From positions 1,044-36,400 of the forward strand of contig LFTF01000037.1 of NCBI GenBank assembly GCA_001512945.1: a stretch of DNA of 35,357 nt, written 5' to 3'. The notes under the pieces are model-generated. The model ran no database searches. It had not been told where the DNA came from and saw nothing but the letters and a program-made list of their open reading frames with translations. The position numbers were made by a program, and so were the translations under genes. The stretch comes from Clostridiales bacterium DTU023 (lineage in GTDB: Bacteria > Bacillota > Clostridia > Saccharofermentanales > DTU023). Of the stretch, positions 9,689 to 13,445 are shown one piece after another (within the stretch, counting starts at the first letter, position 1; every line of letters begins with the position of its first letter).

Positions 9689-12214
9689 ATGCAAAAACAC
9701 AAATATGAAATGCAGCTTACGGGCAGACCGTTAACGCTGGAAGTAGGCGAACTGGGTCAGTTCGCGAACGGATCGGTATTAGTCCGATTTGGAGATACAG
9801 TTGTCCTGACAACGGTAACAGCTTCAAACGAACCAAGGGAGGGGATAGACTATTTCCCTCTTTCCGTCGATTATGAAGAAAAAATGTATAGCGTAGGTAG
9901 AATCCCAGGTGGATTTCTCAAGCGCGAAGGTCGTCCCACTGAATACGCTGTCCTGACAGCGCGTTCGATTGACCGGACGATCCGACCACTATTCCCGGAT
10001 GATCTCCGAAACGATGTAGTGGTCAATAACTTGATCCTTTCTGTTGATCATGACAATTCGCCTCAGGTTGCCGCGTTAATCGGCACCTCGGCGGCTCTTT
10101 CGATCTCGGATATTCCGTGGAACGGTCCGGTCGTTGGCGTTCAGGTTGGTATCGTCGATGGTGACATCGTCCTTAATCCCAATCTCGAGCAGTCACAAAA
10201 GTCGGATCTCGATCTCTTCCTTTCTGGCACAATTGACAAGATCAATATGATCGAAGCTGGTGCCAATGAAGTCAGTGAAGAACTGATGATGGAAGCGATT
10301 GAAGAGGGACACAAGGTCATCGCCGAGTTGTGTGAGTTGATCAACCGTATGAGAAGCGAGATAGGCAAAGAATACTTTGAGTATGAGTCGCAAAGCGTAC
10401 CGGAAGAACTCTTGCGCAGTGTGTGTGACGAATATCGTGAGCGCATGCGTGAAGCAGTTCTTTCAGTCGACAAAAGGGTACGTGACTGTGCTGTATCGGC
10501 TTTGAGTAAAGATATACGCACGTTTATAGAGACGGAATTCGAAGACAGTGTCAGCTACACGGCTACAGTGATCGATGAATTGCAAAAGCGTGTTGTGCGC
10601 GATTATCTTCTCAATGAAGAGAGGCGAGTCGACGGGCGTGACCTCAACGAGATCCGACCACTGACAGCCAAAATCGATCTACTGCCTCGAGTCCATGGTT
10701 CCTCACTATTTTCACGCGGGCAGACACAGGTAATGACGATTTGCACCTTAGGTACAGTTGGTGATGCACAGCGTCTCGACAGTATTGAATCTCAAGAAAG
10801 CAAACGTTATATGCACCAATATAACTTCCCGGCTTACAGCGTCGGTGAAGCTCGTCCGAACCGTGGAGCCGGTCGTCGCGAAATTGGGCACGGCGCTCTG
10901 GCGGAACGCGCCCTTCTCCCGGTCCTGCCGGGGATTGACGAGTTCCCCTATGCAATTCGTTGCGTTTCCGAAGTAATCATGTCGAATGGATCTACCTCAC
11001 AAGCATCTGTCTGCTCCAGTTCACTGGCGTTGATGGCCGCAGGTGTGCCAATCAGCAAACCGGTCGCTGGTATATCTTCAGGTCTTATGATTGATCCGGA
11101 AGATACAAGCCGCTATCTCGTGTTCATGGACATTCAGGGTATTGAAGACTTCTTTGGTGACATGGACTTTAAGGTTGCCGGCACTCGTGACGGAATTACG
11201 GCGATCCAGGTTGACATTAAGGTAGATGGTTTGACGCTTGACATCATTCGTGACGCTTTCGCTTTAACACGCGAAGGTAGACTCCAAATTCTTGATGATG
11301 TGATGGCGCCTTGTATCGCTGAGCCGCGCTCTGAGCTTTCGCCCTTTGCGCCTAAGATCGATCAAGTTGACATTCCATCCGATAAAATCCGTGAGGTCAT
11401 CGGAGCAGGCGGTAAAGTTATCCGTCGGATCGTCGAACTCTCTGGGGCGCAGATTGACGTCGAAGAAGACGGATCTGTCGGTCATGTTTATGTTTCGTCA
11501 ACTGATCCCGACGCAAGAAAGAAAGCAGTGGATATTATCCATGCGATCGTCTTTGATCCCGAACCCGGAACTTCCTTTGAAGGCACCGTTACGCGATTGA
11601 TGACATTTGGAGCTTTTGTTGAGATAGCTCCAGGTAAAGAAGGTTTAGTCCACATCTCGAAGATGGCATGGCATCGCGTTGGTAGCGTTGAAGATGTCGT
11701 GAAGGTTGGAGATGTGGTCAAGGTTCATGTATCAGAAATCGATGATCAAGGCCGCCTGAATCTGGCAATGCGCGATCCAGCGGATAAACCAGAAGGTTAT
11801 GTGGAAGAAAGCCGCGAGCGTTCGAGCGGACGGAGCGACAGACGCTCATCCGGATCGAGCGGTGGCAGGAGTTTCCGAAGCAATGACCGAGGCGGACGCG
11901 ATGGTGAGCGTTCTGATTCATACCGGGGACGCGAACGCCGTGATAGCACTCCGCGCTCCGACTCTTACCGAGGACGCGAACGCACTGAAAGTGCGCCGCG
12001 CTCTGATTCGAACCGTGGACGCGAACGCACTGAAAGTGCGCCGCGCTCCGACTCATACCGAAGACGCGAACGCACTAATGATGCACCGCGATCTGACTCG
12101 TATCGCGGACGCGAACGTACCGAAGGTGCGCAACGCGGCGAGCAAAGTGAACGTCGTGATAACGATGATCGCGGAGAACGTAAAGGCGAACCCAGAAACG
12201 AACGCCGTTTCTAA
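9689..12214 (+). CDS. pnp: Polyribonucleotide nucleotidyltransferase with an extended Arg/Ser/Gly-rich C-terminal tail
   Basis: Two RNase PH domains (VRFGDTVVLTTVTAS, SVGEARPNRGAGRREIGHGALAERAL), KH (IREVIGAGGKVIRRIVE), S1 ([40 protein letters not shown]), then about 130 aa of low-complexity tail. Confidence 0.97.
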   Translation: MQKHKYEMQLTGRPLTLEVGELGQFANGSVLVRFGDTVVLTTVTASNEPREGIDYFPLSVDYEEKMYSVGRIPGGFLKREGRPTEYAVLTARSIDRTIRPLFPDDLRNDVVVNNLILSVDHDNSPQVAALIGTSAALSISDIPWNGPVVGVQVGIVDGDIVLNPNLEQSQKSDLDLFLSGTIDKINMIEAGANEVSEELMMEAIEEGHKVIAELCELINRMRSEIGKEYFEYESQSVPEELLRSVCDEYRERMREAVLSVDKRVRDCAVSALSKDIRTFIETEFEDSVSYTATVIDELQKRVVRDYLLNEERRVDGRDLNEIRPLTAKIDLLPRVHGSSLFSRGQTQVMTICTLGTVGDAQRLDSIESQESKRYMHQYNFPAYSVGEARPNRGAGRREIGHGALAERALLPVLPGIDEFPYAIRCVSEVIMSNGSTSQASVCSSSLALMAAGVPISKPVAGISSGLMIDPEDTSRYLVFMDIQGIEDFFGDMDFKVAGTRDGITAIQVDIKVDGLTLDIIRDAFALTREGRLQILDDVMAPCIAEPRSELSPFAPKIDQVDIPSDKIREVIGAGGKVIRRIVELSGAQIDVEEDGSVGHVYVSSTDPDARKKAVDIIHAIVFDPEPGTSFEGTVTRLMTFGAFVEIAPGKEGLVHISKMAWHRVGSVEDVVKVGDVVKVHVSEIDDQGRLNLAMRDPADKPEGYVEESRERSSGRSDRRSSGSSGGRSFRSNDRGGRDGERSDSYRGRERRDSTPRSDSYRGRERTESAPRSDSNRGRERTESAPRSDSYRRRERTNDAPRSDSYRGRERTEGAQRGEQSERRDNDDRGERKGEPRNERRF
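11924..12148 (+). repeat. Five tandem 45-bp (15-aa) repeats in the PNPase tail
   Basis: RGRERRDSTPRSDSY / RGRERTESAPRSDSN / RGRERTESAPRSDSY / RRRERTNDAPRSDSY / RGRERTEGAQRGEQS in register at 45-nt spacing. Confidence 0.85.
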
Positions 12215-12224
12215 AGTAGTTTAA

Positions 12225-12254
12225 TGGACACGGCTTTCGCTTCGTTGTTATGTT
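12225..12254 (+). promoter_or_regulatory. Promoter of the S1/RG-rich gene, homologous to the tRNA-Trp promoter downstream
   Basis: TGGACA-18 nt-TATGTT, aligned with TTGACA-18 nt-TATGAT at 13183-13212 within a longer shared block (GACACGGCTTTCG). Confidence 0.6.
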
Positions 12255-12293
12255 GAATGCCATCTTGGTGTCACTGGAAAGTGTCGCCGAATC

Positions 12294-12330
12294 AGGAGAG
12301 TAACTCAATAGAAGATTACGGTCTCCAAAA
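12294..12330 (+). pseudogene. tRNA-Trp 5'-half remnant in the 5' UTR of the S1/RG-rich gene
   Basis: AGGAGAGTAACTCAATAGAAGATTACGGTCTCCAAAA versus AGGGGAGTGGCTCAATGGCAGAGCAACGGTCTCCAAAA (13251-13288); about 30 of 38 aligned columns identical, last 13 nt perfect. Confidence 0.8.
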
Positions 12331-12342
12331 AGGAAAAATGCA

Positions 12343-13116
12343 ATGGAAAATATGAATGAAAATACCTTTAATCCCCAACCAGGCGATGTCTACGACGGCA
12401 CCGTCAAAAGAATAATGACTTATGGGGCCTTCGTTGAAGTAGCCCCGGGTAAAGAAGGTCTGGTACACATCTCGAAGATGGCATGGCATCGTATTGGCAG
12501 TGTCGAAGATGTCGTCAAAGAAGGCGATGTCGTCAAGGTTTATCTCGAAGGTATCGATGATCTTGGTCGTCTAAATCTGGCAATCCGCAATCCAGCAGAC
12601 AAACCAGAAGATTATGTTGAAGAACGTCGCGAGCGCTCAAGCGGAAGGGGCGACAGGCGTCAATCCGGATCGGGCGGTGGAAGAGATTTCCGCAGCGATG
12701 ATCGGGGCCGACGCGGTGGGCGCTCTGATTTATCAGGATTTAAGGCAGAACCTGGTACAGCGTTTGACGGAACCGTCAAACGATTGATGACATTCGGAGC
12801 CTTTGTTGAGGTTGAGCCGGGCGTAGAAGGCCTGGTCCATATCTCTAAGATGGCTTGGCACCGCGTTGGCAGCGTCGAAGATGTTGTCCAAGTCGGTGAT
12901 GTTGTCAAGGTTTACGTCACAGAGATCGATGACCTAGGTCGTCTCAATCTGTCGATGCGCAATCCTGCTGATAAGCCTGAAGGTTTTGTTGAAGAAAGCC
13001 GTGGACGTTCGGGTGAGAGACGCTCATCTGGTGGTTCAGGCGGCGGCAGAAACTTCCGCAACGACGACCGTGGCGGACGCGGTGGCTCATACGGCGGAGG
13101 ACGCGATCGCCGGTAA
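12343..13116 (+). CDS. Two-S1-domain RNA-binding protein with RG-rich linkers, paralogous to the PNPase C-terminus
   Basis: Two copies of (D)GTVKR(I/L)MT(Y/F)[28 protein letters not shown], each followed by RSSG/RGG-rich sequence; SD AAGGA 8 nt upstream of ATG. Confidence 0.9.
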
Positions 13117-13182
13117 TGGCGCGCTCTGACGCATAAAGCAATGGTGATTGTGCAAACGAACACTGTTGCTAAAATGCTTTGA

Positions 13183-13212
13183 TTGACACGGCTTTCGTAT
13201 CTTTGATATGAT
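13183..13212 (+). promoter_or_regulatory. tRNA-Trp promoter
   Basis: TTGACA (13183-13188), 18-nt spacer, TATGAT (13207-13212). Confidence 0.8.
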
Positions 13213-13222
13213 GAACGCCGTC

Positions 13223-13246
13223 CGGTGGCGCTGAAAAGCGCCACCG
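13223..13246 (+). other. Hairpin in the 5' leader of the tRNA-Trp precursor
   Basis: CGGTGGCGCT-GAAA-AGCGCCACCG perfect 10-bp stem, four nt before the tRNA 5' end. Confidence 0.8.
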
Positions 13247-13250
13247 AAAT

Positions 13251-13325
13251 AGGGGAGTGGCTCAATGGCAGAGCAACGGTCTCCAAAACCGTAGGTTGCA
13301 GGTTCGAGTCCTGTCTCCCCTGCCA
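13251..13325 (+). tRNA. tRNA-Trp (anticodon CCA), 3' CCA encoded
   Basis: Full cloverleaf: AGGGGAG/CTCCCCT acceptor, GCTC/GAGC D stem, ACGGT-CTCCAAA-ACCGT anticodon arm, GCAGG-TTCGAGT-CCTGT T arm, G-CCA. Confidence 0.95.
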
Positions 13326-13368: not shown

Positions 13369-13445
13369 CGGGGTGTAGCTCAGGTGGCTAGAGTGCTTGC
13401 TTGGGGTGCAAGAGGTCGCAAGTTCAAGTCTTGTCACTCCGACCA
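13369..13445 (+). tRNA. tRNA-Pro (anticodon GGG), 3' CCA encoded
   Basis: CGGGGTG/CACTCCG acceptor, CTTGC-TTGGGGT-GCAAG anticodon arm, TTCAAGT T loop, A-CCA. Confidence 0.93.

Follow-up and report, generated by a model that had tools for sequence, protein, structure and literature searches.

We propose that a tandem duplication, running from codon 610 of pnp to the anticodon loop of the tRNA-Trp gene that follows it, has very probably given rise to a new gene with a captured tRNA promoter, in which half of a tRNA is carried along as a transcribed passenger. The window, i.e. the whole stretch of 35,357 nucleotides analysed here, is part of a 1.4-Mb genome in 132 contigs. It holds a legible natural gene birth: for promoter, leader, Shine-Dalgarno and start codon alike, the parental bases can be identified one by one within the window.

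Parent genes and their arrangement in relatives

The coding part of the duplication stems from pnp (9689-12214, forward strand, as are the other features of the duplication), which encodes a polynucleotide phosphorylase of 841 aa with two RNase PH domains, a KH domain and one S1 domain as assigned by Pfam, and a tail rich in RG and SYRGRER. Direct repeats (D1/D3, spacing 815) and a codon-level alignment identify the segment from codon 610 to the stop (11516-12214), comprising the KH-S1 linker, the S1 domain and the tail, as the parent of the new gene. The pnp tail also contains in-frame direct repeats of 45 nt at 11908-12132, with units of SYRGRERTESAPRSD.

The parent of the tRNA half is an intact tRNA-Trp(CCA) at 13251-13325 (ARAGORN; Rfam, 71.4 bits), and the tRNA calls on the window place a tRNA-Pro at 13369-13445. 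Alignment locates the tRNA-Trp promoter at 13183-13212, with TTGACA, 18 nt, TATGAT and an extended TG, matching 11 of 12 consensus positions, followed by a predicted hairpin in the pre-tRNA 5' leader (13222-13245) that covaries across the genus.

Nine further members of the genus carry tRNA-Trp behind pnp, preceded by the same promoter and hairpin, i.e. they have the single-copy ancestral arrangement expected of a tandem duplication. Among the pnp-like relatives obtained by scanning 85,462 species genomes, those with tRNA-Trp in reach were checked and gave one S1 match each; no second close S1 gene was found at the locus among 39 relatives' genomes. The duplication, found in one genome, appears to be specific to this lineage as far as can be seen.

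The tRNA half and its junction with pnp

Alignment to 13251-13325 reveals a 5' half of tRNA-Trp at 12293-12330, which spans the first bases through the anticodon loop and differs from the intact tRNA-Trp(CCA) by seven substitutions and one deletion. The homology stops after CTCCAAAA (12330) and the 3' half is absent; a tRNA was not detected here by ARAGORN or, even at E<=1, by Rfam, and an Rfam search of the leader returned no other RNA family either. An earlier sequence-only reading of this DNA had described a tRNA-Trp 5' half in an mRNA leader, lacking its 3' half and hence a cloverleaf, that ends at the anticodon loop and passes into a Shine-Dalgarno and start codon, and our analysis agrees with it, also in the coordinates. 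Its account of the start signals holds in part: both are present, but the long frame starts at the second ATG (12343), the ATG at 12338 opening five codons only.

The shared sequence is considerably larger than the tRNA half. Positions 12196-12330 (135 nt) are a 76% copy of 13154-13288, and as this match to the tRNA-Trp upstream region has E = 1.7e-19 in a search of the whole genome, it is not due to chance. The homology reaches about 100 nt upstream of the tRNA start, covering hairpin, promoter, spacer and the end of pnp. By repeats and alignment, the first part of the copy, the pnp end and spacer (12196-12221), shares 77% identity with the sequence from 13154 onward, ahead of the tRNA-Trp promoter. 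It is followed by the copied promoter (12225-12254), aligned as TGGACA, 18 nt, TATGTT and an extended TG, a weaker match to the consensus than the parent (9 versus 11 of 12), and by the copied 5' leader hairpin (12262-12292), predicted to fold as UUGGUG.CACU GGAA AGUG.CGCCGA and retained to an extent not beyond chance.

Comparison of all three sides places the junction at 12330/12331, where the tRNA-Trp anticodon loop is joined to pnp codon 610; the breakpoint scar that the sequence-only reading had raised as one option is thereby supported and given its position. From 12331 onward, the DNA is a copy of pnp from 11516 onward, at a spacing of 815 and in the same reading frame, i.e. a collinear direct copy with a junction that joins the end of the unit to its start, as in a tandem duplication. 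As microhomology at the junction amounts to no more than about 1 nt, the event resembles illegitimate recombination.

The start signals originate from pnp codons. Where pnp has AGA AAG AAA GCA GTG GAT (R K K A V D), the new gene has AGG AAA AAT GCA ATG GAA, and the sequence and codon alignment match the Shine-Dalgarno (AGGAAA) and ATG (12331-12345) to AGA AAG AAA GCA GTG of pnp (11516-11530). The Shine-Dalgarno derives from the Arg-Lys-Lys codons ahead of the GTG, and since the alignment with pnp is in frame from the junction onward, the start ATG (12343) is the former GTG (11528), a Val codon.

Alternatively, the half may be the remnant of an attachment site, left by an element that once inserted into the anticodon loop of tRNA-Trp and has since disappeared. 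Islander, in which 159 of 3919 islands had 5' tRNA fragments (PMC4383910), accepts as an island configuration a 5' fragment that precedes the intact tRNA in the same orientation and has its end at the anticodon loop, and the locus resembles such fragments in lying beside an intact copy. In contrast to them, less than 1 kb separates the copies and host DNA is duplicated on both sides of the fragment. The 0.9 kb in question, against an Islander minimum of 2 kb, contains no integrase or mobile gene; no integrase was found between or beside the fragment and the intact tRNA, with only the S1 gene between them. Nor is the shared sequence limited to an attachment core, as it extends beyond the tRNA through the promoter into the end of pnp, and the DNA past the junction is pnp. 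The absent integrase and the over-long homology rule against this explanation, leaving it a very slight probability.

RNase P recognises the acceptor/T-arm stack of its substrates, and tryptophanyl-tRNA synthetase (TrpRS) needs the acceptor end. A tRNA mimic, e.g. the decoy for either enzyme suggested by the sequence-only reading, would profit from the anticodon CCA and its loop, which are intact, but the T arm, the 3' acceptor strand, the CCA end and the 3' strand of the anticodon stem (CCG replaced by AGG) are absent, so that the half offers neither a cloverleaf nor an acceptor/T-arm stack, in line with the blank tRNA searches. As the parts that RNase P or TrpRS recognise are missing, a decoy is very unlikely, with a chance close to nil.

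The new double-S1 gene

The new gene (12343-13116), characterised using Pfam, dN/dS and a tree, encodes 257 aa with two S1 domains, S1-A and S1-B, each followed by an RG-rich tail. Relative to the S1 domain of pnp, dN/dS amounts to 0.16-0.17 for S1-A and 0.06-0.08 for S1-B, with 53% and 63% of the fourfold sites changed, respectively. Because dN/dS is low while over half of the fourfold sites have changed, the gene is an old duplicate kept by purifying selection.

The second S1 domain (12702-13085) is a further in-frame copy, at a spacing of about 372 nt. In a tree of the three S1 domains of the window and the pnp S1 domains of 18 relatives, pnp S1, S1-A and S1-B of the window cluster with 99% support, apart from every other pnp, and S1-A pairs with S1-B (86%). 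Given this pairing, the second S1 domain probably arose after the large duplication. This order is favoured, not settled, and an AU test did not reject the grouping of pnp with S1-A (P = 0.26).

The product is most likely a small S1 RNA-binding protein. It scores 105.5 bits against NCBIfam NF040579, below the curated cut-off of 117, and resembles the CvfD/Ygs/GSP13 proteins of this family in consisting of free-standing S1 domains with short tails, but differs from them in having two S1 domains and in originating from pnp.

Proposed mechanism

Combining these data, we propose the following course of events. An illegitimate tandem duplication in this lineage copied a unit with its start at pnp codon 610 in the KH-S1 linker and its end in the tRNA-Trp anticodon loop, including the S1 domain, tail and stop codon of pnp as well as the promoter and 5' hairpin of tRNA-Trp. 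The resulting order is pnp, promoter copy and tRNA half, followed across the junction by the pnp 3' end, promoter and tRNA-Trp. The upstream promoter and tRNA half in this way landed before the copied pnp 3' end, making it a separate gene with a captured stable-RNA promoter. In conjunction, the Arg-Lys-Lys codons became the Shine-Dalgarno and the Val (GTG) codon an ATG, with translation from a former internal codon, and the tRNA half would be carried as a passenger in a transcribed leader of about 80 nt. A later in-frame duplication probably added the second S1 domain.

Promoter capture by tandem duplication is already known, from the E. coli long-term experiment, where it placed citT under the rnk promoter (PMC5918244), and from further experiments with E. 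coli and B. subtilis (PMC11111574). As in these cases, a duplication via short or no homology puts a copied gene behind the copied promoter of a neighbour. Unlike in these cases, the promoter comes from a tRNA gene, the captured piece is a 3' fragment of pnp whose start codon arose from an internal one, and its product is both old, with over half of its fourfold sites changed, and retained. The window is a well-preserved natural case with a tRNA promoter, and suggests that, through capture of such a promoter, a fragment of a protein can come to be expressed and later be kept by selection. It also calls for caution: half a tRNA in the leader of an mRNA may be no more than a scar.

Structure and conservation of the leader

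Another reading would make the retained half and 5' hairpin a structured leader with control over the translation or stability of the S1 mRNA. In its favour, the predicted fold has two hairpins in a row (-21.3 kcal/mol, z about -2), the entire leader is conserved above third codon positions, and one pair of the GGAGA/UCUCC stem has been strengthened from G.U to A-U. However, this stem, taken for a new local hairpin by the sequence-only reading, is otherwise inherited, since GGGGA and UCUCC already pair, and more strongly, when the intact tRNA-Trp half is folded by itself (-13.5 kcal/mol, compared to -8.0 for the present half). When 20,000 mutants were drawn at random from the intact half, with as many changes as the present half carries, 47% matched or exceeded the folding of the present half, or 6.9% if the types of change were kept, i.e. 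selection for the GGAGA/UCUCC hairpin is not significant in this test. The copied 5' hairpin retains nine of ten pairs, as do 16% of random mutants (52% with types kept), which likewise speaks against selection for it.

The Shine-Dalgarno and ribosome-binding site lie outside the hairpin of the tRNA half, and the predicted accessibility of the site is 0.65 both with and without the half (0.925 and 0.928 in a longer transcript), so sequestration of the Shine-Dalgarno by the half finds no support in its deletion. Identity to the parent is 77% for the half, 77% for the spacer, 80% for the promoter and 68% for the 5' hairpin, and in this respect the half does not exceed the spacer or the rest of the leader (Fisher P = 1). 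The equal accessibility and the equal conservation speak against the half having become a translational control element, as had been suggested earlier, and a structured leader is decidedly improbable in view of these data together with the mutant tests.

At 76% identity, the whole 135-nt leader exceeds the roughly 45% expected from third codon positions on the branch of the new gene. This may reflect constraint on the leader as a whole, but as the spacer shares the excess, it is explained just as well by gene conversion between the copies or by an overestimated yardstick. The unchanged anticodon side of the half (ACGGTCTCCAAAA), picked after the fact, is suggestive. As far as tested, the half is ordinary as a leader element; a literature search returned nothing to the point on a tRNA half in an mRNA leader.

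Promoter copy and expression

The promoter copy keeps the -35 element, the 18-nt spacing and the extended -10, and judged from these features is presumably active. Each copied hexamer has lost one genus-invariant base (TTGACA to TGGACA, TATGAT to TATGTT), and because of these losses it is possible, if rather unlikely, that the copy has lost its activity altogether and that expression of the S1 gene depends entirely on read-through from pnp, after which no terminator-like site was found. The promoter is, however, the best-conserved segment of the leader (80%), with spacing and extended -10 intact, which argues against a dead promoter.

If the captured promoter still behaves like a tRNA promoter, the new RNA-binding protein would be tied to growth rate. 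A fuller scheme, in which the pnp-derived double-S1 RNA-binding protein stands under stable-RNA growth-rate control and is made in step with tRNA-Trp, the half and hairpin being kept as a functional leader, is clearly unlikely. The interval from the new S1 gene to the tRNA-Trp promoter (13117-13182) yielded no terminator-like site, so the S1 mRNA may continue into tRNA-Trp, with tRNA processing generating its end.

The tRNA-Trp leader and promoter across the genus

The 5' hairpin between the parent promoter and tRNA-Trp (13213-13250) varies in sequence across the genus while its pairing is kept. In a comparison of ten genus genomes, i.e. that of the window and nine others, plus the leader copy, 94% of cells are paired and 13 are changed on both sides, compared to 4.5 in shuffles (0 of 500 reach 13). 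Covariation of this kind is, to our knowledge, unusual for a hairpin in the 5' leader of a pre-tRNA; a literature search on such hairpins returned nothing to the point.

The tRNA-Trp promoter (13181-13221) is almost invariant across the genus, beyond the hexamers too. The exact form of its motif TTGACACGGCTTTC occurs once in the genome, and among the near matches examined none lies directly before a tRNA except the two copies of the window; one near match lies about 0.6 kb from a tRNA-Leu. An inverted pair, ACGGC ... GCCGT (ATTGACACGGCTTTC ... TATGATGAACGCCGTC), flanks the promoter spacer and -10 and could be an operator; in the leader copy, one of its arms is altered (GCCAT).
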